32,671 bases of DNA from NCBI GenBank assembly GCA_902521645.1, contig CABYSN010000012.1, forward strand, positions 1-32,671, read 5' to 3'. The position numbers and the translations under genes are program-made. The notes beneath the pieces are model-generated. The model saw nothing but the letters and a program-made list of their open reading frames with translations, was not told the origin of the DNA and did not search any database. Positions 1,715 to 25,404 of the stretch are shown in pieces (positions within the stretch are counted from its first letter, which is position 1; every line of letters begins with the position of its first letter). The stretch is from Planctomycetota bacterium. Its GTDB lineage: Bacteria > Planctomycetota > Phycisphaerae > Phycisphaerales > SM1A02.

Positions 1715-2308
1715 TCAACCGGTGGTCGAGATTCTTCCTGCAGGGATGATGCGCGGGAGTTCGGGAGCGGAGGTCTTGACCGGCTCTTCTGCGGGCGCGG
1801 TGGAAGGGAGTTCCTCCATCGCGGCCGCCGAGGTGTTTTCCGAGGTGAGATTTTCAACCAGCAACGACCAGGTCTCGCGTTCATAACGAAGCAGTTCCAC
1901 GACTTCGTCGATGATGGCGACGGATTTCTCACTGGAAGCGTCAACGAGCCTCGTGAAGATGAACGTGTAGAGACCGGTCAATCGTTCGTACAACTCGGGA
2001 TCCACCTCCGGATTCAGTCCGGAGATCAGTTCGGTGATGATCGCTCGAGCCTTGGAAAAACCGGTGAAGATCATCTCGTGATTTCCATCGCTGATTCCCG
2101 ACCGGGCCTGGTCACAGAAACGGATCGCTCCATCGATGAGAAGAAGTCTCAGTTCGGCTGGTGAAGCGGACATCACTCTGGTCTTCAAGTAGGCGTTGGG
2201 GGTGGATTGACCACCTGATCCCGGGCCGTTCTGCACGGTCGCGGGAATCGATGCACGCTTGCCTGAGTTGGGACCGTACGCCCCGCTGCTCGTCGGATGA
2301 TGAGTCAT
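1715..2308 (-). CDS. fliS: Flagellar export chaperone FliS
   Basis: 197 aa. NAYLKTRVMSASPAELRLLLIDGAIRFCDQAR is the FliS N-terminal signature. Located directly downstream of fliD. Confidence 0.88.
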   Translation of the reverse strand: MTHHPTSSGAYGPNSGKRASIPATVQNGPGSGGQSTPNAYLKTRVMSASPAELRLLLIDGAIRFCDQARSGISDGNHEMIFTGFSKARAIITELISGLNPEVDPELYERLTGLYTFIFTRLVDASSEKSVAIIDEVVELLRYERETWSLLVENLTSENTSAAAMEELPSTAPAEEPVKTSAPELPRIIPAGRISTTG

Positions 2309-2367
2309 GTCCCTAGAGAACTCCGTTGATCGAGTGCTGCCGCTGAGAATCCACCGATGGAATCGAA

Positions 2368-5300
2368 TCAGAATCCAAGATTTCCACCCATGCTCAACAG
2401 TGCGCCCTGTTGACCCTGTAATTGTGCCAGCGCAGTCTCCATTGCGAGAAATTCACGTTGCAGCTTCTCACGCTTGGCCTCGAGACGTTGATCGATCTGG
2501 GTGATCCGATCGTTCTGCGAATCGATCTGAATCTGAAAGCGCTCGTCGGCGAGTGTCACGGCGCCCGTCGTCGAATCGGTCAGATCATCAAGCAGGCGAT
2601 CGAACAGATCACCGAATCCGAGAGAGACATACACCGTGTTGTCGACTTCGACGCTGATGCCGGAGTCGGGTTCACCGAGAACCTCGGAGGTGGTGGTCTG
2701 TGAATCGAAGGTGTTGAAGAGGGCTTCCATCCCCGCCGGATCGCTCTGATAGGCGGTGAGGAACTTCTCCTCGTCGAATTCGATCTCCCCGGAAGAACCG
2801 AGCCTGATACCGACCTGCGACAGATACTGATACGGACCGTCCACATCCTGAGCCTTCTGCTGAAGGGTCGAGAAGAGTCGACTGCGCACCAGGCCGACGG
2901 TCGAGTCGCCCAGCAGAGGACCGCGGACTTCGTTCTCGGAGTCATAACTGTCGTATTCATCGATCTTCGAAATCGCTTCATTGAACGCGTCGGTGAACGC
3001 CTTGACCGCGGCGACGACGGAATCATCATCCCGTTCGATGTTGATGGTGATGGGTTCGGGACCAGCCTGATTCAGATCGATCGACAGACCTTCGATCACA
3101 CCGTTCATCTCATTCGTGGAAGAGGAGACCAGGAGTCCGGTCGCCGGATCGTCCGAACCGATGAATGCCTGGGCATCCTCGCCCTTCACCAATTGATCGA
3201 GTCCGAGATCGACGCCCCCGGTGTTGATGACCAGTTCTCCTGCAGCGCCCGAGATGTCGGATGTCATGCTGAGATACCATGGCTTGCTTCCATCACCCGT
3301 GTTCAGGACCGTCGCGGAGATCGGAGCCTTCGCTTCCTCGAGCTTCGCGATCAGATCATCCATCGTGTCGGTGGGATCGAGATCGACATTGATTGAATAG
3401 GAACCATCGATCAGACCGCCGACGGTCTCGGATTCGCCGGCGATCCTCAAGCCGCTCGCGACGGTCCCTGAAAGATCCTCGACCTTCATTTTGGAGACGG
3501 CGACGGATCCCGTTTCCGCCGTGGTGTCGATCAGCTCGAGACCGTCACCGTTCGCATTGATCTCGGCTCGGATCGCGAGTCCTCGGGTGTTGATGAGTTT
3601 CATCACCTCATAGAGCGATTCGACGTCACTTCCGATTTGAACCGTGGCGGTCGCCCCGGTCGAGTCCGTCAGACGGAATGAACCGGAACCGATTCCACGG
3701 CCGTAATTCATGTCGGAAAGGCGAGTCGACTGCGTGACGTACTGGAGTTCGAGATTGGCACCGGTGATCTTGTCGCCGAGAACGACCGCATTCAGTCCCA
3801 GAGCCTCGGCCAGATCTCCCGAAACAGACAGGACCTGAAGGTTCCCGGGGTTCTTGTCGACGACCTGAAGGCTCGACCCGGAGGGATCGAGACCGAATTC
3901 GACCTGTACCGAGGACTGCGCGATCTGTTCCTGAACCATCTCGATGAGTTCGGACATCGTCTGAGCGTTCGACAACCCGGTGATGGTGATGACTTCGCCA
4001 CCGGAATCGGCGATGGTCAGACTGTCGCCGGTGCCGAGTCCGGAACCGCCGTTCAGGCCGGAGATCAATGAGGTACCCATCCCTGAAAGAACTCTCTCGC
4101 CGGACAACAAGGTGGAGGATGTCCCATCGACCTCGAAACCGAGATCGGACAGTGTTCGAACGGGTATGTCCGCGGCATCGCCGGTGAAACCGGGCGAGCC
4201 TTCGCCCAAGGAAAGTGTGAAACCTTCGGCCGTGAACTCGATTCCCTGACCGTCGGAGGTGATGTTCACGAACACCCTTCCCCCGGTCGCCGAGTTCACC
4301 CTGTCGGCGAGATCCTGGATGGTGGTTGCACGAGCTGTCTGGACTTCATTGCGAAGCACATCACCCTGCAACGTGCCCGCGACGGCCGTTCCGAAGATTC
4401 CGAGGTCTTCCGCGGTCGAATCGCCACCGATCCCCTCCCCTTCGACGCGAAGCTCGTCCGGACCTCCAAGCGTGTCGTTCATCACGAATCCGTTCGCGTC
4501 GGCATTGAGCGTCATCGTCACGCCACCCGCTCCGAATTCGTCGGCGAGCGCGCCGTTCACGCGGTCGATCAGATCCTGGACCGTTTCGACTTCATCCTGG
4601 ATTGTGAGACCGTCTTCATCGAGAACCCTGCCGAGGTCGATGGTGACGGAGACTCCGGTTGAGGACACGATTGTGAAATCACCTTGCTCGGGATCATCAT
4701 TGATCGCGATGCCCTGGCCGTTGTTCAACTTTGAGAGCAGGGACTCGCCGGTGATCGGCGAATCAACGCGACCAAGATCGATTTGATATTCGTTGCCCTG
4801 GACGTTCAGAACGAAATCGGTCACCGAATCCCTGATCAACACGCCACGACCATCGTTCAACGATGACAACGTGCTGTTCATGCCGAGCACGTTCACATCG
4901 GTTCCGACGAGCGTGCCGTTCGAAGATGACCCTGCAATCCCGAGATCGGAAGCCGTTGAACTTCCGGCACCGTCGACGACGGTGATCGCTCCACTGCCAC
5001 CGGAGAGATCCTCGAGCACCAATCCATTGCCGGCGATCGATGCGGAAACGGAGATGCCCGAGGCGCCATTGATGGCGTCGATGACCTCATCCAGGGAGGT
5101 GGCATCGGAAAGATCTATTTCGGCGGTACCACCCGAGCGATCGGTGATCATGAATCGACCACGTTGGACGCCATCGCCACCGTTGAGTTCCGAAAGCGGC
5201 TGGTCACTCGTGAGACGCCCGTTGCCAAGTTCGATTCCCAGAGAGTCAAGACCCAGCGGAGTGCTGTCGCGTGTCGCGTAACCGTGAGAGAGAAACTGTG

Positions 5301-5622
5301 AGCTCGAGGCGAGTTGTTTCACGATGAATGCATAGGAACCGGGTTGTGGGTTGCCGGACGCCAGAACGCTCAACGCATCAGAATTGGAAGAGGTCGCCAG
5401 AACTGAATTGAAAATATCATTGGTTCGAAACGCACTGGCCGTGCCCTGGAGATTCAACAAGCGCGAATTGATGTCGAGCAAGGCAGATTTTGCCGTCGAC
5501 AAGCGGGCGATTCTCGCCTGTATTGGAAACTTGATTCGTGACTCGACGGCGAGCAATTGCTCGATCAACGAGGTGGTATCGATACCACTGATGAGTCCGA
5601 CGCCTGCTGAAATGCCACCCAT
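2368..5622 (-). CDS. fliD: Flagellar hook-associated protein 2 (filament cap) FliD, with multiple flagellin hook-IN-like repeats
   Basis: 1084 aa. N-terminus GLISGIDTTSLIEQLLAVESRIKFPIQARIARLSTAKSALLDINSRLLNLQGTASAF; C-terminus with RLEAKREKLQREFLAMETALAQLQGQQGALLSM. Both are FliD_N/FliD_C hallmarks. Confidence 0.92.
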   Translation of the reverse strand: MGGISAGVGLISGIDTTSLIEQLLAVESRIKFPIQARIARLSTAKSALLDINSRLLNLQGTASAFRTNDIFNSVLATSSNSDALSVLASGNPQPGSYAFIVKQLASSSQFLSHGYATRDSTPLGLDSLGIELGNGRLTSDQPLSELNGGDGVQRGRFMITDRSGGTAEIDLSDATSLDEVIDAINGASGISVSASIAGNGLVLEDLSGGSGAITVVDGAGSSTASDLGIAGSSSNGTLVGTDVNVLGMNSTLSSLNDGRGVLIRDSVTDFVLNVQGNEYQIDLGRVDSPITGESLLSKLNNGQGIAINDDPEQGDFTIVSSTGVSVTIDLGRVLDEDGLTIQDEVETVQDLIDRVNGALADEFGAGGVTMTLNADANGFVMNDTLGGPDELRVEGEGIGGDSTAEDLGIFGTAVAGTLQGDVLRNEVQTARATTIQDLADRVNSATGGRVFVNITSDGQGIEFTAEGFTLSLGEGSPGFTGDAADIPVRTLSDLGFEVDGTSSTLLSGERVLSGMGTSLISGLNGGSGLGTGDSLTIADSGGEVITITGLSNAQTMSELIEMVQEQIAQSSVQVEFGLDPSGSSLQVVDKNPGNLQVLSVSGDLAEALGLNAVVLGDKITGANLELQYVTQSTRLSDMNYGRGIGSGSFRLTDSTGATATVQIGSDVESLYEVMKLINTRGLAIRAEINANGDGLELIDTTAETGSVAVSKMKVEDLSGTVASGLRIAGESETVGGLIDGSYSINVDLDPTDTMDDLIAKLEEAKAPISATVLNTGDGSKPWYLSMTSDISGAAGELVINTGGVDLGLDQLVKGEDAQAFIGSDDPATGLLVSSSTNEMNGVIEGLSIDLNQAGPEPITINIERDDDSVVAAVKAFTDAFNEAISKIDEYDSYDSENEVRGPLLGDSTVGLVRSRLFSTLQQKAQDVDGPYQYLSQVGIRLGSSGEIEFDEEKFLTAYQSDPAGMEALFNTFDSQTTTSEVLGEPDSGISVEVDNTVYVSLGFGDLFDRLLDDLTDSTTGAVTLADERFQIQIDSQNDRITQIDQRLEAKREKLQREFLAMETALAQLQGQQGALLSMGGNLGF
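3590..5200 (-). repeat. Diverged intragenic hook-IN-like repeats in FliD (about 5 copies; boundaries approximate)
   Basis: Recurring L(S/I)xLNxGxGV/I...DxxGxxxxIDL...xxLIDxxNGA units: LSELNGGDGVQ.., LSSLNDGRGVLI.., LLSKLNNGQGIAI.., LISGLNGGSGLGTG.., LSDMNYGRGIGSG... Confidence 0.65.
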
Positions 5623-5693
5623 GCTTGACTCCTATGACGCGAAGATCAGCGTCAAAGCCCACGAAACAACCTGTCGGTCAAACATCGGCGATA

Positions 5694-5897
5694 TCAGGCG
5701 GCCATCGACCAACCATCACTCTCGGAGAGCGGTATCGCCGTGTCCCAGGCTGGAACGCGAGAACTGATCCGTTCCAACTCAAGCAATTCGGATGCCCAGA
5801 TAGAGAGGGTCTTCTGAAAAAGACGCCGGGCGCCCGCGACTGCGTGTTCGGATTCGAATTGACTCAAGTCATGCATCGATGCGGTCTCCTCGACCAC
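5694..5897 (-). CDS. Hypothetical small protein (67 aa) upstream of fliD
   Basis: Short ORF on the fliD strand, 71 bp upstream of the fliD start, with a predicted helical core HAVAGARRLFQKTLSIWASELLELERI. No family recognised. Confidence 0.3.
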   Translation of the reverse strand: MVEETASMHDLSQFESEHAVAGARRLFQKTLSIWASELLELERISSRVPAWDTAIPLSESDGWSMAA

Positions 5898-6146
5898 GTG
5901 TGCATGAATCCACTGGGAGTCATGAAATCACTCAGAGAGACAAGTGATTCAAGGTCGGCGGTCGTGAAGAGAGATCGACCGTCCAAAGCACCGTCTGAAC
6001 CCAACTCACAAGAAACCACCCAGATTTCTCCAAGGCAGAGACTCTGAGTCTTCAACCACGAAAAGAAAGGGTCGAAATCTGGCATGATCAAGAGAGATCA
6101 CGAAAGATAGCGATATTTAGATGTATGAAGCTGAAAGATCGCGCAT

Positions 6147-7259
6147 TTATGAACCAGGCAGCCCAAGGCGCTCCGTCAGGTGATCGAATTCTTCAAGGGT
6201 CTCGAAGGACACCTGGAGCTTGCCGGTGCCCTTCTTCCGGCCAAGGACAATCTGAACCCGTAAGCCAAGCATCTCGGTCAGGCGCTTCTCAAGATCAACC
6301 ACGTTGGCTTGTCGCCTAGTTATCGGACTGTTTGCCTCTGCTTTCGGATCCGTCAAATCCTTGGCTTGGACCAAGGAGCGAACGCGTCGCTCAAGCTCAC
6401 GAACGGACCATCCCCCATTCACTGCGGCAGCTGCGGTTGCTCGCCTCACAACAGGATCGGTCAAGGAAAGAAGCGCTTTGGCGTGCCCCAAAGAAAGCGT
6501 CCCCCGCCGGACGGCCGCCAATGAAAAATCGTCCAGATCAAGAACCCGAAGGAGATTGGCAACCGAAGAACGATCCAGACCAACACGCTCAGACAACGCC
6601 TTCTGGGTCAGGCCAAAGGTATCGCGCAAACGCGCCAGCCCACGGGCGCGTTCAATCGGGTTGAGGTCCTCACGATGAACGTTCTCAATCAGAGCCAATT
6701 CCGCCGCCGCCTGATCATCCACTTCCAAGGCAATCACAGGAACCATCGCGCGCCCCAGGGACTGCATCGCACGGAAGCGTCGCTCCCCTGCCACAAGCTC
6801 CCAGGAACCAGTGTTCCCCGTGGAACGAACAACCAAAGGCTGCATCAAGCCGGAGCGATCAATCGAGGCGGCAAGCTCACGAAGCGCTGACTCATCAAAG
6901 TCCTCTCGAGGCTGAAAGGCATTGGGAACCACGGAGTCAGTGGGAACCATGGAGACCTGCGGGTCACTTGAAGCACCAGCCGTGACCCCTCCCATGTCAG
7001 GCGAGACGCTGCCTGAAACAGCACGATCAGTGACCTCCAAGCCAGGACTCGAAAGCGCGGGAGCCGCTGGAGAAGGAACCACCCCCGAACCAGAAGCCCT
7101 GTTCCCCGTGGAACGCGCAGCCCCGGTCTCAACATCAACGGGAGCACTCAGCAAACTGCCAAGCCCACGACCCAGTCGTCGCTTCTTCTTTGAAGCCGCA
7201 TCCCCTTTGGCCCCAGACTTGGGACGGCCAACCGAACTCTTCTTTGTGCGCTCTGCCAT
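6147..7259 (-). CDS. parB: Chromosome-partitioning protein ParB (Spo0J/Noc family)
   Basis: RRLGRGLGSLLS N-terminal motif; VPTDSVVPNAFQPREDFDESALRELAASIDRSGLMQPLVVR; GERRFRAMQSLG; ENVHREDLNPIERARGLARL. The likely start is the internal ATG at 7259 (MAERTKKS) rather than the GTG at 7316 used in the ORF track. Confidence 0.95.
   Translation of the reverse strand: MAERTKKSSVGRPKSGAKGDAASKKKRRLGRGLGSLLSAPVDVETGAARSTGNRASGSGVVPSPAAPALSSPGLEVTDRAVSGSVSPDMGGVTAGASSDPQVSMVPTDSVVPNAFQPREDFDESALRELAASIDRSGLMQPLVVRSTGNTGSWELVAGERRFRAMQSLGRAMVPVIALEVDDQAAAELALIENVHREDLNPIERARGLARLRDTFGLTQKALSERVGLDRSSVANLLRVLDLDDFSLAAVRRGTLSLGHAKALLSLTDPVVRRATAAAAVNGGWSVRELERRVRSLVQAKDLTDPKAEANSPITRRQANVVDLEKRLTEMLGLRVQIVLGRKKGTGKLQVSFETLEEFDHLTERLGLPGS
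6812..6827. promoter_or_regulatory. Second parS-like site inside parB (TGTTCCCCGTGGAACG, identical 16-mer)
   Basis: GTTCCCCGTGGAAC at 6813-6826, identical over 16 bp to the 7100-7115 site. Confidence 0.6.
7100..7115. promoter_or_regulatory. parS-like site inside parB (TGTTCCCCGTGGAACG, one mismatch in the 14-bp core)
   Basis: GTTCCCCGTGGAAC at 7101-7114 against the perfect GTTCCACGTGGAAC. Confidence 0.6.
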
Positions 7260-7304
7260 GATGAATCCTTTCAAGTGTCGCGCCCGACCCTGGGCACCGA
7301 AGGA

Positions 7305-7335
7305 CATATATCGCACGTTCCACGTGGAACGTCAA
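7305..7335 (-). promoter_or_regulatory. Candidate sigma70-type parB promoter (TTGACG ... TATATG, 19-nt spacer) with the parS-like palindrome inside the spacer
   Basis: Minus strand reads TTGACG (7335-7330), then TTCCACGTGGAACGTGCGA, then TATATG (7310-7305). Confidence 0.35.
7315..7332. promoter_or_regulatory. parS: parS-like site: perfect 18-bp palindrome ACGTTCCACGTGGAACGT
   Basis: Core GTTCCACGTGGAAC at 7317-7330 matches known ParB binding sites of the (T)GTTCCACGTGGAAC/TGTTTCACGTGAAACA type. Located about 55 bp upstream of the parB ATG. Confidence 0.85.
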
Positions 7336-10211: not shown

Positions 10212-10278
10212 TGAAGGACATCGACTCGATGAGACGAGCCGTGGACGTCATTGAAGTATAGATGGCGGTTTCGGGGTG

Positions 10279-11106
10279 TCAGAAACGAGGGGGTATCGCG
10301 GACCACCCCGATGCATAGAGATCGGAACGGATCGAAAGATAGCCGGGATATGCCGCACGATGCTCGCCAAGGCGTCGGGCGTCGTAGCTGAATGTGCAGA
10401 CCGGGTCGGTCGTCTCGACCAGAACTGCACCATTGGGATCGACTGCAAAGGAGGGGCCGCCCAGCAGAACCCCTTCTTCGGGTTCCGGTCGATTGACCGT
10501 CGCCACCCAGCAACAGCTGGTCAGGGCATTCGCAATGAGAACAGGGCGCCAGCGATGCCAGGTCGCGGATTCACTCGCTCTGGGTACGACCACACATTCC
10601 GCCCCAGCAGCGGCAAGAAGCTGAGTGCCCTGAGGCCGATTGGCATCGGAACAGATCTGGACGCCCAATGGAAAACCCAGACCATCGATGGGTGTCAGCG
10701 GGTCATTTCCTCGATCGTAGTGATCAACCTCCCAGAAACCGGGCTCATCGGGAATGTGGGCCTTTTTCCAGCTTCCGACGAGGGTTCCAGAAGAGTTGAT
10801 GACCAGAGCCGTATTGAAACGAGCGCCATGCTCATCGAACAGGATGGCTCCACCCACCAAGCCGATCCCGGCTTCGCGAGCGGCCTCCATCTGAATCTGG
10901 CACCGAGGCCCGCCCGAAGACTCTGCGTCGGAAGCCTTCTGATCCTTGCTGAACGGGGACCAAGGATTTAATGCAAGTTCAGGTATGACAGCAACTTGAG
11001 CACCCATTTCGCGGGCTTCAAACAGTCGTTTTAGAAGTCTCTCCCGGCCATCTTCCTGCCAGAAAACCTCGCTGATGAGCGCAATCGTTCGAGTGTGATC
11101 AGACAT
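10279..11106 (-). CDS. Carbon-nitrogen hydrolase (nitrilase superfamily)
   Basis: Apparent Glu-Lys-Cys triad: VAVIPELALNPW (E), SWKKAHIPDEPGFWE (K), LGVQICSDANRP (C). The start is probably the ATG at 11106 (MSDHTRTIALISEVFW). Confidence 0.85.
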   Translation of the reverse strand: MSDHTRTIALISEVFWQEDGRERLLKRLFEAREMGAQVAVIPELALNPWSPFSKDQKASDAESSGGPRCQIQMEAAREAGIGLVGGAILFDEHGARFNTALVINSSGTLVGSWKKAHIPDEPGFWEVDHYDRGNDPLTPIDGLGFPLGVQICSDANRPQGTQLLAAAGAECVVVPRASESATWHRWRPVLIANALTSCCWVATVNRPEPEEGVLLGGPSFAVDPNGAVLVETTDPVCTFSYDARRLGEHRAAYPGYLSIRSDLYASGWSAIPPRF

Positions 11107-11590
11107 CAGAGCCCCCTGGAGCGAGTTTGGAGTCAAGCCGACATTCAATGATGTATAGAAGGATGGAAATCACCTGATCCGGGGTTCGTGCCACCGCAAG
11201 GGCGGCTGAATCGACCTCTTTCAGAGCATGATCGAGATCTTCATCATGAAGTGTGATCAATGAGGCACCCAGAGCCACCGCCAGGCCGGCATCAAAGGCC
11301 GCGTTCCATTGTCGATACTTGGGGCCGAACCGAGCCACGACGATGTCGGCACGAGAGATGAGGGTTCTGGTTCGGATGGCATTCAACTTGGCACCCTTGT
11401 GGTCATGCCAGAAACGTTGATCCTCCGCTCCGAGAATGCTGGCACCGCACGCATCGCTTGAAGGGTGATCGGTGTTCGCCGCGGTGAGAGTCACCGGAAG
11501 TTCGTGCGCGAGGACACCCTCAGCGATCCGGTCACGCCAGTCGGTGTGCACTTCACCGGCAAGATAGATGTTCAACTCAGGATGATTCAT
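11099..11590 (-). CDS. YtoQ-family protein (nucleoside 2-deoxyribosyltransferase-like)
   Basis: 163 aa. LNIYLAGEVHTDWRDRIAEG, LGAEDQRFWHDHKGAKLNAIRTRTLISRADIVVARFGPKYRQWNAAFDAGLAVALG is the YtoQ family pattern. Confidence 0.82.
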   Translation of the reverse strand: MNHPELNIYLAGEVHTDWRDRIAEGVLAHELPVTLTAANTDHPSSDACGASILGAEDQRFWHDHKGAKLNAIRTRTLISRADIVVARFGPKYRQWNAAFDAGLAVALGASLITLHDEDLDHALKEVDSAALAVARTPDQVISILLYIIECRLDSKLAPGGSDV

Positions 11591-12416
11591 GACGACGCAT
11601 CTCCTGCCAGTCGAGGATACAGGCGGAGGGCGCTCCCTTGTGCAGTTCGAACCTCTTCACGGCGATTCGAGTCACGAAGGCGCACGCGGACTCGGGATCA
11701 TCCGTCACATGAAAGAGGTCGAGATCGGTGGGATCGATCATGCCATCAGCCATCATCTTCTTCGTCATGAAGTCGACCAGGCCCGACCAGTAGTCCGTAC
11801 CCATCAGAACCACTGGAAAATCCCTGATCTTTCCGCACTGGATCAAGGTGAGAATCTCCATCAATTCATCCATGGTCCCGAGCCCTCCGGGCATCACGAT
11901 GAATCCATATGAATACTTGACCAGGATGGTCTTGCGTACGAAGAAGTGCGTGAATGACACCTGTCTGTTGACGAAGCGATTGGCGCACTCTTCGTGTGGC
12001 AGTTCGATCGTCGCTCCGATCGAACGTCCACCCGCTTCGGACGCTCCGCGATTGGCCGCCTCCATCATGCCCGGTCCGCCCCCGGTCATGACACTGAATC
12101 CCTCGCGGGCGACCAGTGCGGCGGTTCGTCGACACATCTCGTACGAAGGGTCTTCTTCCGATGTCCGAGCGCTTCCGAAGAATGTCACGCAGGGTCCGAT
12201 CGATCCGAAGACGCGAATGGATTCCTCGAACTCCTCGTTGACCCGTGCGAGCATCTCCTGGTCGACACCATGTTTCTGAGGGCCTTCCAGAAACCGGATG
12301 AAGTCGTAGCGGGAAGGCGTGTTGGCCGCGTCGAAGAACGGACTTTCACCACGTTCCTCCATGATTCGTTCGATGCGGCCGGTCGGATCGTTTTCATTGA
12401 TATCGTTCATCACCAC
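11577..12416 (-). CDS. LOG-family / TIGR00730-type Rossmann-fold protein (possible nucleoside-5'-monophosphate phosphoribohydrolase)
   Basis: MTGGGPGMMEAANRGASEAGG and MPGGLGTMDELMEILTLIQCGKI (PGGxGTxxE) signatures. Confidence 0.9.
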   Translation of the reverse strand: MVMNDINENDPTGRIERIMEERGESPFFDAANTPSRYDFIRFLEGPQKHGVDQEMLARVNEEFEESIRVFGSIGPCVTFFGSARTSEEDPSYEMCRRTAALVAREGFSVMTGGGPGMMEAANRGASEAGGRSIGATIELPHEECANRFVNRQVSFTHFFVRKTILVKYSYGFIVMPGGLGTMDELMEILTLIQCGKIRDFPVVLMGTDYWSGLVDFMTKKMMADGMIDPTDLDLFHVTDDPESACAFVTRIAVKRFELHKGAPSACILDWQEMRRHESS

Positions 12417-12511
12417 ACGATAACTGCCGCAGGGTCCGTTGAGGAGAGGTGATTCGCCACTCGACAGAAGTCATCCGATCTTGGACAATCGGAGAAAAGC
12501 AGGAGACCGAC

Positions 12512-13948
12512 GTGCTGTTAAGACAGATCTATGACGAGGACCTCGCGCATGCCGCCTGGTTGATCGGGTGCCAGAAGACCGGCGAAGCGATCATCATCGA
12601 TCCTGCCAGGGACATCGACAGGTACATCGAGCTGGCGGAGGATCATGCATTGCGGATCACGGCGGTGGCGGAGACGCACGTCCATGCGGACTTCCTGTCC
12701 GGAGCACAGGCACTTGCCGAAGCCAGCGGCGCGACACTCTACCTCTCCGGCCATGGAGGAGAGGACTGGTCGGCGCGATGGGTGACGCCCTTTGATCATG
12801 TCATGCTCCGACACGAAGAGACATTCCGAGTCGGAGGAATCGAATTCGAGGCACGTCACACACCCGGCCACACCCCGGAACATCTCAGCTACATGGTCAC
12901 CGACATCGGTGGTGGAGCCGATGAACCCCTTGGAGTTCTGAGCGGTGATTTCGTGTTCGTCGGCGATCTCGGCCGCCCCGATCTTCTGGAGAGAGCGGCG
13001 GGACACGAAGGCGTGATGGAGCGATCGGCACGAGAACTCGCCCGATCCACGAGGGACTTTCTGGAACTTCCTGACTACCTCCAAGTGCTTCCGGCACACG
13101 GGGCGGGCAGTGCCTGCGGGAAGGCTCTTGGCGCCATCCCCCAGTCGACGGTCGGATACGAGCGTCGATTCAACGCGGCGATGTCCATCGTCGATGATGA
13201 AGATCGATTCGTGCACGCCATTCTGGAAGGGCAGCCCGCACCGCCGCTGTACTTCGCACGAATGAAGATGCAGAACCGGGATGGCGTGCCACCTCTGGGT
13301 TCGATGCCGGAACCGAAGCGGTGCACGCCGGCGGAACTCGAAGACGACGGACGCGTGGTGGTCGACGTCCGCGACTGGGATACGTTTCGATCCGGACATG
13401 TTCCGGGAGCCCTCTGGTCGAGAACGGGGGCTTTCTTCTGCGCCTCGGTCGGCTCATACGTGATGCCGGACGAACGTATCGCACTGATCTGTCGCCCGGA
13501 GGATGTCGAACGATTGACGAGATGTCTCGTTCGAATAGGTCTTGATCGGGTGGAAGCATGGTGTCCGATCGATTCATTCGAGGAGCACCGATCCGCTGGA
13601 AGGATACGAACAGACTGCATCGAGGACGTACCGCTCTCGAAACTCGCACAACAACTCGATTCAGGGACACCGGTTCTGGATGTCCGACGAACCGATGAGT
13701 ACGACGCCGGCCACCTCCAGGGGGCGGTCAACGTTCCCCACACCAGGTTGCTGGAACATCTCGAGGATCTCCCGGATTCAGATGGGCCGTTCATGGTGCA
13801 CTGTCAGGCGGGGGTGCGTAGCGCGGCGGCCTGTTCGATGCTGGCACGAAGAGGTTTCGAGGTTCTCAACATCCCAGCCGGATGGGGCGGGATCGAGAAG
13901 ACGGCACTACCGGGAAACGACGGCCGAAGGGATGCCGAAGTCGTCTGA
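12512..13948 (+). CDS. Metallo-beta-lactamase-fold hydrolase with C-terminal tandem rhodanese domains (persulfide-dioxygenase/ETHE1-like fusion)
   Basis: MBL motifs ETHVHADFLSGA, HTPGHTPEHLSY, GDFVFVGDLGRPDL; rhodanese regions VVDVRDWDTFRSGHVPGA and VLDVRRTDEYDAGHLQGAVNVPH...MVHCQAGVRSAAACSMLARRG. The GTG at 12512, after an AGGAGA-like RBS, is the probable start. Confidence 0.87.
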   Translation: MLLRQIYDEDLAHAAWLIGCQKTGEAIIIDPARDIDRYIELAEDHALRITAVAETHVHADFLSGAQALAEASGATLYLSGHGGEDWSARWVTPFDHVMLRHEETFRVGGIEFEARHTPGHTPEHLSYMVTDIGGGADEPLGVLSGDFVFVGDLGRPDLLERAAGHEGVMERSARELARSTRDFLELPDYLQVLPAHGAGSACGKALGAIPQSTVGYERRFNAAMSIVDDEDRFVHAILEGQPAPPLYFARMKMQNRDGVPPLGSMPEPKRCTPAELEDDGRVVVDVRDWDTFRSGHVPGALWSRTGAFFCASVGSYVMPDERIALICRPEDVERLTRCLVRIGLDRVEAWCPIDSFEEHRSAGRIRTDCIEDVPLSKLAQQLDSGTPVLDVRRTDEYDAGHLQGAVNVPHTRLLEHLEDLPDSDGPFMVHCQAGVRSAAACSMLARRGFEVLNIPAGWGGIEKTALPGNDGRRDAEVV

Positions 13949-19414: not shown

Positions 19415-20986
19415 GTGACAGAGAAAAGAACAGAAGAAGACCGCCTTCAAGACAGGCCTGATCCGAAACGGTGGATGATCCTGCTGGTGATGACAGGATC
19501 ACTGGCGATGGTCATGCTCGACACGACGATCGTGGCGGTCTCGCTACCGTCGATCCAGACATCTCTTCCAGGTGTCAGCCAGAACATGCTCGAATGGGTG
19601 ATCGTCGCCTACATGGTGGTGCTTGCATCGTTCATGGCGCTGGGGGGTCACCTTGGCGACCTTTTCGGGAAACCGAGGATGTTCTTCATCGGAGTCGTGG
19701 GGTTCGGCATTTCCTCCTGTCTGTGCGGATTGGCCTGGGACGGAACGTCATTGATCCTCTTCAGAGTGATCCAGGGTCTTTTCGCGGTCATCATGCAACC
19801 AGCTTCGAGTGCGATCGTCATCGGATCGTTCGCACCCCAGGATCGAGGGAAGGCGATGGCGGTCTATGCCGGTATCCCCCTTCTCTTTCTCACTGCAGGT
19901 CCGGTCCTTGGAGGAGTCATCACGGAGTACGGATCCTGGCGGTATTGCTTCCTGATCAACGTGCCGATCGCGATGATCGTTGGAATGGCGGTTCTGATAC
20001 TCAAGCCGAGAAATCCGGGAAGCCGGGGGAACGCATTCGATTGGTGGGGCGCGGCCCTGCTTGGCTCGGGGCTCCCGTGTCTCATCATTCCCATCCAGCA
20101 GGCAAGCGTCTGGGGTTGGGAGAATCCGTGGACGCTGGGATTGATCGTTCTGGGAGCGCTCGTACTGACGGCCTTCGTGTGGCGTGAGCTCAAGGTCGAG
20201 GATCCGATCGTGTCCCTCAGATTGTTCGCGGATCGATCTTTTCTCGGTGATTCGATACTTCTCTTCATCACTCAGGCCAGTGTCACGGGAATCACGATAT
20301 TCATCGCGATCCATCTGCAGGTGGTGATGGGTTTCAGTCCCGACCAGGCCGGAGTGGCCATGCTTCCGGTTCTGGTACCTGCGGCGATCATGATTCATTT
20401 CGCCGGCAGGTGGTACGACCGGTCCGGAGGGCGAGCACCGGTCGCCGTCGGAGGAATCGTGGTGACCATCGGACTGGCCGTCCTGGCGATCGGCACCCAG
20501 ATGCAGACCTACTTCATCATGGCGATTGGGATGGGACTGGTCGGCTTGGGCATACCATTCGTGCAGCTCCCGGCGAACACGGACGGGATGGGGCGAGTGG
20601 GCGATCGCAAGCGAGGCATGGCGAGCGGTGTTCTGCAGACCTGTCGACAATTCGGAGCCGCGATCGGCATCGCAGCGATGGGTGCGGTGATTGCAGGCGT
20701 TCAAAACGGATTGATTCGAGATGCGGACGAAGGGTCCGGTCTGCAGGGTGAGAAGGAACAGGCGATCGTGCTTGATGCGGCAAGAGGAGAACTTCCGAAA
20801 CTGGAATCCTTGCGTGCGTCCGATCCGGAACTGGCTGGTGTGATCGCGGACATCGTCTCGGAAGGCATCGTCGCCGGCCTCTGGGTGTCGACGGTGATCG
20901 GCTCGTCGATAATCATCGTTGCCTTTCTGTTTCTCGAGAACCAGCCGATCTCGAGAAGGATGTCGGGTTCCGAAGCCGCTGATTGA
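19415..20986 (+). CDS. MFS transporter, DHA2 (EmrB/QacA-type) drug:H+ antiporter family
   Basis: MVMLDTTIVAVSLPSIQ, WVIVAYMVVLASFMALGGHLGDLFGKPRMF, many transmembrane segments, 523 aa; GTG start. Confidence 0.9.
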   Translation: MTEKRTEEDRLQDRPDPKRWMILLVMTGSLAMVMLDTTIVAVSLPSIQTSLPGVSQNMLEWVIVAYMVVLASFMALGGHLGDLFGKPRMFFIGVVGFGISSCLCGLAWDGTSLILFRVIQGLFAVIMQPASSAIVIGSFAPQDRGKAMAVYAGIPLLFLTAGPVLGGVITEYGSWRYCFLINVPIAMIVGMAVLILKPRNPGSRGNAFDWWGAALLGSGLPCLIIPIQQASVWGWENPWTLGLIVLGALVLTAFVWRELKVEDPIVSLRLFADRSFLGDSILLFITQASVTGITIFIAIHLQVVMGFSPDQAGVAMLPVLVPAAIMIHFAGRWYDRSGGRAPVAVGGIVVTIGLAVLAIGTQMQTYFIMAIGMGLVGLGIPFVQLPANTDGMGRVGDRKRGMASGVLQTCRQFGAAIGIAAMGAVIAGVQNGLIRDADEGSGLQGEKEQAIVLDAARGELPKLESLRASDPELAGVIADIVSEGIVAGLWVSTVIGSSIIIVAFLFLENQPISRRMSGSEAAD

Positions 20987-21038
20987 GCTGTATGCTCTGA
21001 AGAACGCAGCCTCTGGAAGCCGATCCCTTCGGGAACGA

Positions 21039-21665
21039 ATGATGCCGATCTTTGAGAAAAACGGAAGACAGGTCGCCTTCATACATGTCCCCAAAGCGGC
21101 TGGAACAAGCATCGAGATGATGTTCAAGAACGCGGGGTGGTCGATGACTTTCTACTCGACCACAGCCGGTGGGTACGAGGTGTCGTCCCAGCACATGAGA
21201 TACTCCGAACTGAAAGAGAAGATTCCGAATCTGGATGACATACCCTCGTTCGCCATCGTCAGAGAGCCGCTTCAGAGGCTGATCAGCGAATGGGCCTATC
21301 AGACCAATCAGATGTTTTCATCGGATCTCGAATTCAATGATTTCGTCAGACATCTCGATTGCTCACTGAAACAGACCAAGATCTACTGGGACAATCACTG
21401 GAGACCCCAGGTCGACTTCCTGGATGGCCCCATCGACAAAGTAATCAAGCTGGAGAACATGACGGAGTCACTCCTCCCGTTTCTTGGTGAAAAGAACATC
21501 ATTCTCGATCCGGTGGTGCCTCACATCAACAAGAAGAAGAGGGTCGGAAAATATGACAGAGGCGCTCTGGCGATCAGTTCGGAAAGCATTGAAAGAATTC
21601 TCAGAGTGTACGAGCGTGATTACACGGAACTCGGATACCCACCTGTGATTCAAGGCAAGGAATGA
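21039..21665 (+). CDS. Sulfotransferase family protein (carbohydrate sulfotransferase-like)
   Basis: VAFIHVPKAAGTSIEMMFKNAGW (5'-PSB-like PAPS-binding loop) and FAIVREPLQRLISEWAYQ (3'-PB-like). The ORF-track start at 20919 overlaps the MFS gene, so ATG 21039/21042 is preferred. Confidence 0.8.
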   Translation: MMPIFEKNGRQVAFIHVPKAAGTSIEMMFKNAGWSMTFYSTTAGGYEVSSQHMRYSELKEKIPNLDDIPSFAIVREPLQRLISEWAYQTNQMFSSDLEFNDFVRHLDCSLKQTKIYWDNHWRPQVDFLDGPIDKVIKLENMTESLLPFLGEKNIILDPVVPHINKKKRVGKYDRGALAISSESIERILRVYERDYTELGYPPVIQGKE

Positions 21666-23134
21666 CCAGGGACAACCCTTCCAAAAAGAAGAGCAAATCA
21701 AGCAAGAGGGCGCTGATGCTGATCGGTGGCTCCGAAGCCATCGGTCAGGCTGCCGGGATCATCCGGCGACTCATCATCTTGAGAACGATCGGTCTGGAGA
21801 ATTACGGCATTGCCATTCCGATGCTTCTGGTGCTGGGTCTCCTGAACAGGCTTCTCGAGATCAATCCGGGAACGACGTTGGTCCAGGATCGCATGGGTGG
21901 GACCCGCCGATTTCGTGACGCCTTGCAGTTCGTGCAGGTGCTGAGGGGAGGCGTCTACTTTCTGATCGTGATTCTTCTGGCTGTGCCACTGGCGGTGTTC
22001 AACGATCTCGACGAACGTGAATACGTGATGGGTTTCATGTTCGTGGGACTGATTCCACTGACTCGTGGGTTGTGCCACATAGACGTTCATCGACAACTAC
22101 GACGCCGGAAGTTCGAGGCCACTGCCCTCTCCACGACGGTGAACCCGGTCATCTCGACGATCATGGTCTCGATTCTCTGTCTTTTCATGAGCAGCTTCTG
22201 GGTGCCGCTGATCGGTCGATTCATCGATTCCATCAACGCGGTGATCATGTCCTTCGTGGTTTCAAAGCGGCGCTACCGCATGCGGTACGACCATGAAAGC
22301 ACGATCAGGATCATCAAGTTCACCCTCCCGCTCATCATCGGAGGCCTGGTGGTGTTTCTTGCGCAGCACGGTGGCGAACAGTTGGTGAGTGCCTCGCAGT
22401 TTCTTTTCGGCTATTCAATCTCGAAGGTGGAAGTCGGGACACTTGCCGCGGGCGTGATGCTCGCGATGATGCCGGGAAGGATCGGTTCGAAGCTGATCAC
22501 CCAGGTGTTCTCGCCGAAGATCGCCGAAATCAAGCGACGTGGAAGGAATCTGGCCGGACTCTTCGAACAGATTCAAGGATTTGCCTTCACTCTCGGCGCT
22601 GCAACGGTGATCCTCCTGCAAGGTGGTTCGGTGATCATTCCCATCCTGCTGACTGAACGATTCGAAGCAGTCGGTCCGTTCCTGGTGGCGTTGAGCCTGT
22701 TCGGCGCGTTGCGCATCAGCGGGGCATCGACGAGGGCCTTCGCGCTTGGGATGGGCCAGAGCAAGATCATCATGTACGCGAACATCTGGACCCTGGCAGG
22801 GCTGGTCGGTTCCGTATGGGTGGTCTATGCGCAGAGGAGTCTTCTCGAAATCGCATACTGCATGGCATTCGGAGAAATACTCGCAACGCTCGTCCGATGC
22901 ATCCTGTTGAAGAGAATCATCCCGGATCTCAGCTCGGCGACGCTGTTCTTCAAACCCGCTTTCGTTCTTGCATGTGCATTCGGAGTGGGTCTGGTCCAAC
23001 GTGCGTTGATCCATGATCTCTCGATGCCCCTTTCGATCCTGGTCATCATCGCATCGATCGCCGTCGGGGCGGGCCTGCTGAGTCTCGTCTGGTCGTCGAA
23101 CCGTCGCATGATCGCACGAAAGATGTTCGGCTGA
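21662..23134 (+). CDS. Polysaccharide flippase-like integral membrane protein (MOP/Wzx superfamily)
   Basis: 490 aa, multi-span; GGSEAIGQAAGIIRRLIILRTIGLENYGIAIPMLLVLGL; ATGA overlap with the sulfotransferase gene. Confidence 0.78.
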   Translation: MTRDNPSKKKSKSSKRALMLIGGSEAIGQAAGIIRRLIILRTIGLENYGIAIPMLLVLGLLNRLLEINPGTTLVQDRMGGTRRFRDALQFVQVLRGGVYFLIVILLAVPLAVFNDLDEREYVMGFMFVGLIPLTRGLCHIDVHRQLRRRKFEATALSTTVNPVISTIMVSILCLFMSSFWVPLIGRFIDSINAVIMSFVVSKRRYRMRYDHESTIRIIKFTLPLIIGGLVVFLAQHGGEQLVSASQFLFGYSISKVEVGTLAAGVMLAMMPGRIGSKLITQVFSPKIAEIKRRGRNLAGLFEQIQGFAFTLGAATVILLQGGSVIIPILLTERFEAVGPFLVALSLFGALRISGASTRAFALGMGQSKIIMYANIWTLAGLVGSVWVVYAQRSLLEIAYCMAFGEILATLVRCILLKRIIPDLSSATLFFKPAFVLACAFGVGLVQRALIHDLSMPLSILVIIASIAVGAGLLSLVWSSNRRMIARKMFG

Positions 23135-23136
23135 GG

Positions 23137-23853
23137 TCAGGAGTCGTCGGAGACGTTCACCCATTCGTGTGCGTCATGATCGAATCGTTTGATCACGCGC
23201 GCGGGATTGCCGGCCGCGACCGAGAACGAGGGGACACTCCTGGTAACCACGCTCCCTGCTCCGATGATGGAGTTCGATCCGATGGAGACGCCCTTCAGAA
23301 TGGTTACTTTTTCACCGATCCAGACGTTGTCGCTGATTCGTGTTTCTCGTGCGATCAGAAACTCACTCTCGATGGCGGGGGTCTCTGCATCCTGCCACAT
23401 GTGATCATGGTCGGTGATGTAGCAGTTCGCCGCTATGAGAACCTTCCGTCCGATGGCGACCGATGAGACGGCCGAGATGTGTATCGATGGATGGATGATG
23501 CAGCCATCGCCAATGGTGATCACGGCGCGACCCTTTTCCGGGTTGATTGCGGTGATCCGAGCGAATCGCCAGATGCAGACGCTCTTGCCGACATGAATCG
23601 ATCGCTTTCCCTTGATCCAGTTCGGAATCGAGATTCTGGTACCCGACCCGATGGACCCGAACGTCATCCTGTCGTACATGCTCAGAAAAAGGTTGAAGAT
23701 CCGCTTGAGCGCCCGTGCAGCGATGGACTGCGGGAACTTCTTCATGCGAATCATCTCACCGTCCGGATTCCATTCGGACCGATCGAATCCCGTGCCTTCG
23801 AGATCGGGAGAGTGATCCCCCTTGATCGGATGTCGATGATCTGAAGCACACAT
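23137..23853 (-). CDS. Acyltransferase with left-handed beta-helix (hexapeptide repeat; maltose O-acetyltransferase/WbbJ-like)
   Basis: Hexapeptide-repeat C-terminus ...[54 protein letters not shown]. The start may be internal (MIRMKKFPQ or MKKFPQ). Confidence 0.88.
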
Positions 23854-23916
23854 GAGAAGACCCTAGAAGTGGATGCCCTGAACGAGAGTCTCAAGAGGAT
23901 TGAGGAACTCCGCCGA

Positions 23917-25404
23917 CTAATCGCCGGACAGTAAACTATCGACGGATGCCAGATGCAACATGAGCACCAGGGCACGATGTGATGCCGACTTGCCCTCAGT
24001 GTGACCAAGGGCCTTGAAAGGCAATGTCCCAAAATAACCAGCGTTTTCCTTGAAAAAACGTGTTTTCTGACGCTTTCTCCGGTAACGAAGCCACAACGAG
24101 GCCTTGGAAACTGCGGGCGGGATCCCTGCATCGAAGGGTATGTCGGAAAATTCCGGATAGAGACGTTTGCACGCTTCGGTCTGGAGGTCGTTCTGATGCA
24201 TCATCTCCACAGGCACGGAACGGGTCCATGAAAGGAGATCACGGTCCATGAATGGAAGTTGTATCGACGTCTGAGAACGACAGATGCCGAACGGGTTCAA
24301 GGCGATCGAACGACGTCCCCAGTTGTCGAATGTGAAGCTCGTGATCGGATTGGGTGCCTCGAGATGCCGCTGAAGTTCGATCTCGAGGTCGGAGAGAACC
24401 TCGTCGGTGCTCGCGATGGCGAATGGTGCCCGTTCAATGATCTGCTCCAGCCACCACGGTGAGGTTGCAGCGGTCAGAGCGAAAAACCGCTGTGACCAGG
24501 TGAAGAGGTCGCCGCTGCGGAGAAGCTCGGTCATCTCGGGGCTGGCCGCCGAATTTCTGGTGAGACTTCCGGCGCCAAGTCCGTCGTACCAGGGCATCCC
24601 ACCGGAGAGAAGTTCGTTCCAGAGAGGAAGGAGCCAGACATGTTCGAGTGCCTCGAATCCACACGCGACATGCCTGTCACGTTCCGACTTCAACCAATCG
24701 GGCTGGTGCGGAGAAATCTCCGTGAAAGACGCATCCAGTCGGTGTGCGACCCGAGAGGCGAGAGTCACATCGCTCGGATCATCTCCCGCGGGAGAACCGA
24801 GAGAGAGCGTTCGTCGCGGAAAGTGCCCATGACGGTGAAGTTCGAGCAAGATCATGCGTGAATCGCGTCCTCCGGAAAGCGGAAGATCGAAGGACTCATC
24901 GTCAGGCAGACGGCGTTTCATGGCGGTCTGAAATCGATCGATCCAGCCATCGAGGGCCTCGGGCACCGAGTTCGGAGGAGACGCCTCGACATAACGAGAC
25001 GTTTCGATCTCAAGGTGCCCGTCGGACCATCTCATGCGAGCTGCCGACGGCACACGATTGATGCCCTGAAAGAGCGTGCGATCTCCGATCAGGAAACCGG
25101 CACGACAGAAAAAACCAAGGGCGATGGGGTCGATTTCACGACGTTCGAGACGTTCGAGGATCGTCAATGGAGAATCCGAGACGATGATTCGATTCGTGCC
25201 GTGGTGGTAATAGAGAGGAAGATAGCCGTGCCGGTCGGCCTCCACGATCAAGGACCCGCCATCCCATTTCCAGCCACCAGAAACTCCGCATTCCAGTCCC
25301 TGCTCGTCAGGAACGGAACGGCCGAAACGCGCCTGTACCGTGCCCGCCTCTTCGACGACACCATCGCGGGCGTGAAGTTCAATCCAGGTGAATTGATCGA
25401 TCAT
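23917..25404 (-). CDS. Asparagine-synthase-like protein (ATP-pyrophosphatase domain) with truncated glutaminase region
   Basis: PP-loop FDLPLSGGRDSRMILLEL; VEADRHGYLPLYYHHGTNRIIVSD as in AsnB-type proteins. The N-terminus MIDQFTW has no Cys2 nucleophile. Confidence 0.8.
   Translation of the reverse strand: MIDQFTWIELHARDGVVEEAGTVQARFGRSVPDEQGLECGVSGGWKWDGGSLIVEADRHGYLPLYYHHGTNRIIVSDSPLTILERLERREIDPIALGFFCRAGFLIGDRTLFQGINRVPSAARMRWSDGHLEIETSRYVEASPPNSVPEALDGWIDRFQTAMKRRLPDDESFDLPLSGGRDSRMILLELHRHGHFPRRTLSLGSPAGDDPSDVTLASRVAHRLDASFTEISPHQPDWLKSERDRHVACGFEALEHVWLLPLWNELLSGGMPWYDGLGAGSLTRNSAASPEMTELLRSGDLFTWSQRFFALTAATSPWWLEQIIERAPFAIASTDEVLSDLEIELQRHLEAPNPITSFTFDNWGRRSIALNPFGICRSQTSIQLPFMDRDLLSWTRSVPVEMMHQNDLQTEACKRLYPEFSDIPFDAGIPPAVSKASLWLRYRRKRQKTRFFKENAGYFGTLPFKALGHTEGKSASHRALVLMLHLASVDSLLSGD

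Follow-up and report, generated by a model that had tools for sequence, protein, structure and literature searches.

Overlapping LOG, ytoQ and C-N hydrolase genes in Phycisphaerales: a lineage-restricted operon with a possible nucleotide-related role

Members of the LOG protein family carry the motif PGGxGTxxE and a catalytic arginine, and phosphoribohydrolase activity on AMP has been shown for a type-I LOG (PMC4979012). For a type-II LOG of Corynebacterium, cytokinin-releasing activity has been reported (PMC5379747). The YtoQ family includes the Bacillus subtilis gene ytoQ, which is induced by Spx, stands divergent from ytpPQR, and slows growth when disrupted (PMC3176815); when overexpressed, ytoQ supports an artificial route to vitamin B6 (PMC7954711). 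The nitrilase-superfamily amidases (e.g., Nit2/omega-amidase, N-carbamoyl-D-amino acid hydrolase, and N-carbamoylputrescine amidase) have a common domain family and the catalytic residues Glu-Lys-Glu-Cys. A literature search found no description of a LOG-YtoQ-hydrolase set.

One member of each family is encoded in a 32,671-nucleotide stretch of a Planctomycetota genome (contig CABYSN010000012.1, assembly GCA_902521645.1; hereafter, the window). A check of the reading frames places the LOG, ytoQ, and C-N hydrolase genes head-to-tail on the minus strand with overlapping frames (Table 1). The LOG stop codon ends at 11577 and the ytoQ ATG begins at 11590, an overlap of 14 bp; the ytoQ stop codon ends at 11099 and the hydrolase ATG begins at 11106, an overlap of 8 bp. 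An initial annotation had proposed both this arrangement and the three family assignments; the former agrees with the frame check, and the latter were confirmed by Pfam and NCBIfam. In base composition the three genes are like their neighbors, which gives no sign of recent import. The gene families, the overlaps, the flanking promoter-like elements, the catalytic residues of LOG and the hydrolase, and the fold of YtoQ can all be demonstrated at the level of sequence, and on these features the trio is read as a genuine operon, small and confined to one lineage, that combines known enzyme families in a way not found described.

Table 1. Positions in the window of the trio and of adjoining features
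Feature	Positions	Strand	Basis and remarks
LOG-like gene, type II	11577..12410	-	PF03641, TIGR00730; 277 aa from ATG 12410 (279 aa from GTG 12416)
ytoQ, 163 aa, start 14 bp inside LOG	11099..11590	-	PF11071, TIGR03646; AlphaFold2 model vs 8of6
C-N hydrolase (nitrilase-superfamily amidase), 275 aa, start 8 bp inside ytoQ	10279..11106	-	PF00795
-10-like TATCGT, directly before LOG start codon	12417..12422	-	Promoter-like, predicted; TATC[G/T]TG in 6/6 trio genomes
phoD promoter-like element CTGACA-16-TATACT	10255..10282	-	Predicted; TATACT in hydrolase-phoD gap, 6/6 genomes
Neighbor phoD, large PhoD-like phosphatase, 911 aa	7476..10211	-	PF09423; signal peptide by eye
Neighbor parB, conserved downstream context outside the trio unit	6147..7316	-	PF17762, PF02195, PF23552

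Features of the three enzymes

The LOG protein scores 131.9 bits against TIGR00730 (cut-off 96.35), and its best solved relatives are the LOGs 5zi9 (E 3e-59) and 5wq3 (E values from 1e-56 to 3e-59 over both). By its length, N-terminal extension, and sequence it is a type-II LOG, with predicted activity. It retains FFVRK and, as the initial annotation had observed, PGGLGTMDE, and is therefore LOG-like down to the catalytic residues; all LOGs of the cassette keep PGG-x-GT-x-DE, and the arginine of FFxRK is kept in all six trio genomes. On comparison with orthologues, the start was moved from GTG 12416 to ATG 12410 because a -10-like TATCGT stands just upstream and an ATG aligns there in 6/6 genomes. 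The closest described counterpart is the type-II phosphoribohydrolase Cg1261 of Corynebacterium glutamicum (TIGR00730), which has the same N-terminal extension, FFVRK, and PGGxGTxDE; in contrast to Cg1261, the LOG of the window, here known from sequence, shares an operon with YtoQ and an amidase. A scan of viral contigs found no LOG relatives. PADLOC gave a weak, partial match of LOG to PsyrA, which was not read as a defense system.

The YtoQ protein is an ordinary member of its family, matching PF11071 (E 8e-62) and TIGR03646 (205.2 bits against a cut-off of 155.35) over its full length, although unlike the Bacillus gene it has operon partners. Its AlphaFold2 model (pLDDT 91) best matches 8of6, “Structure of YtoQ,” with a TM-score of 0.94 (target length), followed after YtoQ itself by nucleoside deoxyribosyltransferases and DNPH1 (Foldseek E about 1e-4 to 1e-3); by sequence alone the similarity to these enzymes is barely detectable. 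In two alignments, both weak, that agree with each other, D100 of YtoQ falls at the position of the deoxyribosyltransferase catalytic glutamate, E98 in the Lactobacillus leichmannii enzyme. D100 is invariant in all aligned YtoQ sequences. YtoQ thus has an aspartate in place of the catalytic glutamate that marks the functional family of nucleoside 2'-deoxyribosyltransferases, and deoxyribosyltransferase or deoxynucleotide-hydrolase chemistry should not be assumed for it. The deoxyribosyltransferase-like fold suggested in the initial annotation is accordingly supported, and it is also that of DNPH1.

The hydrolase matches PF00795 (E 8e-27), and E43, K115, E126, and C152 are invariant in 14 orthologues. 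The Glu-Lys-Cys triad that characterizes the nitrilase superfamily, anticipated in the initial annotation, is thus present (E43, K115, C152), and a second glutamate (E126) is equally invariant. Nit2 is the best match and N-carbamoyl amino acid hydrolases come next, all of them distant (phmmer E no better than 1e-16). In NCBIfam no equivalog exceeded its cut-off, the protein falling far below every curated threshold; identification as N-carbamoylputrescine amidase (AguB, TIGR03381) was rejected at 72.6 bits against 410.25. The hydrolase therefore shares the domain and the Glu-Lys-Glu-Cys residues of the described amidases but is remote from them and has its own motif, QICSDxxR(P).

Conservation of gene order and the transcription unit

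Six genomes, all from a single Phycisphaerales family, carry the three genes side by side: G000 to G003, of the same genus as the window, and G010 and G467, of another. Between these two genera the proteins are about 60% identical. The trio thus extends beyond the present genome, but the check proposed in the initial annotation, conservation beyond close relatives, turned out negative as regards adjacency, which is limited to the two genera. A ytoQ start codon is available at exactly -14 from the LOG stop in 6/6 genomes, which at such divergence suggests that the LOG/ytoQ overlap is kept more than chance would allow. The hydrolase start lies at -8, -4, -4, -4, -17/+1, and +3 relative to the ytoQ stop (G001 offers -17 or +1).

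Downstream of the trio, phoD and then parB follow in all six genomes. In the window, parB is next to fliD and fliS (1718-7316, minus strand), a chromosome-partition gene in a flagellar context, and both genera retain parB and fliD in this order. FliD (2371-5622, minus strand) is unusually long at 1084 aa, a lengthy segment separating its N- and C-terminal domains, and the PhoD-like phosphatase has a large N-terminal region that is unmatched in Pfam. Since parB and fliD, which clearly have no relation to the trio, are also part of the conserved order, being adjacent says little by itself about a functional link. Upstream, the flank of LOG differs by genus: a divergent metallo-beta-lactamase-rhodanese gene in one, as opposed to a TIM-barrel/DUF6807 gene in G010 of the other. 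This flank and the phoD-parB spacing are rearranged, with the trio and its overlaps intact. The divergent gene of the window (12449-13948, plus strand) fuses a metallo-beta-lactamase domain to rhodanese-like domains; because the match to the G002 orthologue begins at residue 22, its likely start is not 12449 but a GTG near 12512. Farther along, at 19415-25404, genes for an MFS transporter, a sulfotransferase, a polysaccharide flippase-like protein, a hexapeptide transferase, and an asparagine-synthase-like protein form a probable surface-polysaccharide cluster.

Promoter-like sequences precede both LOG and phoD in all six genomes, so the trio looks like a transcription unit of its own. TATC[G/T]TG stands 12 nt before the LOG ATG in 6/6, and TATCNTG-N5-7-ATG has a single occurrence in the window, at LOG, against 0.35 expected by chance; transcription from this element would yield an mRNA with no leader or almost none. 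TATACT is found in the hydrolase-phoD gap in 6/6, the gap being otherwise poorly conserved; in the window a -35-like sequence accompanies it at a spacing of 16 bp, although matches to this consensus are no more numerous in the region than expected by chance. In the second genus, the promoter-like element of LOG is immediately preceded by strong hairpin-plus-T terminators (z about -8), which makes LOG the first gene there; on L111 and L228 they fall no more than about 110 bases ahead of the LOG ATG (5575 and 5090). Together, these predicted signals suggest a three-gene unit that is bounded on both sides and ends before phoD. The phoD gene probably forms a separate transcription unit; its product, apparently secreted, is more likely a neighbor than a partner.

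Distribution of YtoQ and the hydrolase

The GTDB genomes scanned contained at least 592 relatives of YtoQ, and neighborhoods were drawn from 80 loci, some cut by contig ends, spanning Alpha- and Gammaproteobacteria, Planctomycetota, Balneolaceae, Gemmatimonadetes, and others. No conserved YtoQ neighbor emerged among the 80 loci; LOG or the hydrolase was near YtoQ at two of them (L014 and L016), both from the trio genera. Clusters of shared neighbors (at most 7 loci each; e.g., purL-like and ribosomal-protein-S4-like genes) were read as the context of related genomes, not as partners.

Within the order, YtoQ and the hydrolase tend to be found together. Among 251 genomes, 28 have both, 14 have YtoQ only, 7 have the hydrolase only, and 202 have neither (YtoQ in 42, close hydrolase relatives in 35; Fisher p 2e-20 without tree correction), and where the two co-occur they are mostly unlinked, on different contigs or far apart. 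In the window's own family the hydrolase is present in 20/20 YtoQ genomes of the sample (G016, outside the sample, has YtoQ without it), and in a second family YtoQ is present in 8/8 hydrolase genomes. On rpoB trees the two traits change 7 and 8 times in 54 genomes, and 14 and 14 times in 102 genomes. Independent pairs are concordant in 4-5 of 5 cases on the smaller tree (p floor 0.0625) and in about 3-4 of 9 on the larger, with almost none discordant. The tree-corrected signal is suggestive, having the same direction without reaching significance; since the pair result weakened in the 102-genome tree, no significance is claimed for the link. In genus g18, three genomes (G431, G477, G571) have the hydrolase without YtoQ and two (G021, G417) have neither, a pattern useful for dating losses.

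Among 294 genomes of the phylum, YtoQ occurs in 31 and the hydrolase in 3; the two that have both (the window's own genome and G058) belong to this order, and the third (G245), from outside it, is without YtoQ. Of 35 genomes reached via other YtoQ loci, only 2 have a close hydrolase, both planctomycete assemblies in which its coordinates are the same as in G027 and G512. Outside the order, then, YtoQ is frequent and the hydrolase nearly missing, so that YtoQ has no general need of the hydrolase. The occurrence of LOG shows no tie to that of YtoQ.

Possible roles of the operon

The explanation proposed, held tentatively, is an operon whose enzymes serve one nucleotide-related clearing or salvage route. 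The three genes would be transcribed from the promoter immediately before LOG, and their overlapping translation would probably be coupled. The three soluble enzymes may then clear or salvage a nucleotide-like metabolite: LOG would hydrolyze a nucleoside 5'-monophosphate to the base and ribose 5-phosphate; a related N-glycoside would be bound or cleaved by YtoQ, whose active site is modified (Asp); and the hydrolase would take an amide off one of the resulting products or by-products. The YtoQ-hydrolase pair would be the wider association, joined by LOG in the ancestor of the two genera. Such a shared route is plausible given the overlaps in six genomes, the promoter-like elements, the LOG type, the YtoQ fold, and the YtoQ-hydrolase co-occurrence; against it are counted the non-significant tree-corrected pairs, the presence of YtoQ without the hydrolase outside the order, and the failure of LOG to follow YtoQ. 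The damage-control or salvage module envisaged in the initial annotation thus survives as a conserved overlapping unit with the LOG residues and the YtoQ fold, its specific pathway being a guess.

An alternative of about equal likelihood is that the operon is real but encodes three general housekeeping clean-up enzymes with regulation, and no pathway, in common: LOG would recycle nucleotides, YtoQ would do its own widespread job, and the hydrolase would be a general small-amide amidase. That YtoQ stands alone in most bacteria without a conserved neighbor, that LOG is present with or without it, and that 14 genomes of the order have YtoQ without the hydrolase and 7 the hydrolase without YtoQ all fit independent enzymes, but the co-occurrence of the last two is repeated in two families of the order even where they are unlinked. 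An unlikely alternative is that the three genes came together once, before the two genera diverged, and were never separated, the overlaps reflecting compaction only. The restriction of the trio to two sister genera, with the parB and fliD order kept as well, speaks for such inheritance; rearrangement around an intact trio and the promoter-like elements conserved at both of its ends speak against it.

Two specific pathways are each very improbable. In reductive pyrimidine breakdown or a hydantoin route, LOG would free the base and the hydrolase would be a beta-ureidopropionase or carbamoylase, and N-carbamoyl amino acid hydrolases and a beta-ureidopropionase are indeed among its nearest solved relatives. 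Hydantoinase (over cut-off) is nevertheless not enriched with the hydrolase: it occurs in 12/27 genomes that have the hydrolase against 20/28, a difference in the reverse sense (p 0.06), and G001 and G002 lack it; in G031, G036, G021, and G005 it lies within about 0.1-4 kb of a different nitrilase, about 30% identical. The hydrolase thus lacks the co-occurrence or adjacency with hydantoinase or dihydropyrimidinase expected of a beta-ureidopropionase or carbamoylase, which argues against pyrimidine breakdown and, with the score far below the AguB cut-off, weakens the earlier idea of a carbamoyl substrate. The other pathway, in which LOG frees N6-modified adenines that its neighbors modify, draws on the cytokinin release by the Corynebacterium type-II LOG (PMC5379747), but no cytokinin synthesis gene was identified in the cassette or the immediately surrounding genes.

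Of the leads obtained, the most useful is the tendency of the amidase to occur in the same genomes as YtoQ. It is conceivable, if rather doubtful, that YtoQ and the QICSDxxR amidase are a functional pair in Phycisphaerales, the amidase taking a product or by-product of YtoQ and LOG having been recruited to feed it. If the pairing reflects shared regulation only, the trio is an ordinary lineage-specific operon. If the functional pairing is true, it would give the widespread orphan YtoQ family its first pathway context. YtoQ is widespread and strongly conserved, and its structure is solved; the operon and the partner focus the search on N-glycosides and small amides, and the operon with its co-occurring amidase provides a concrete set of proteins for co-expression.
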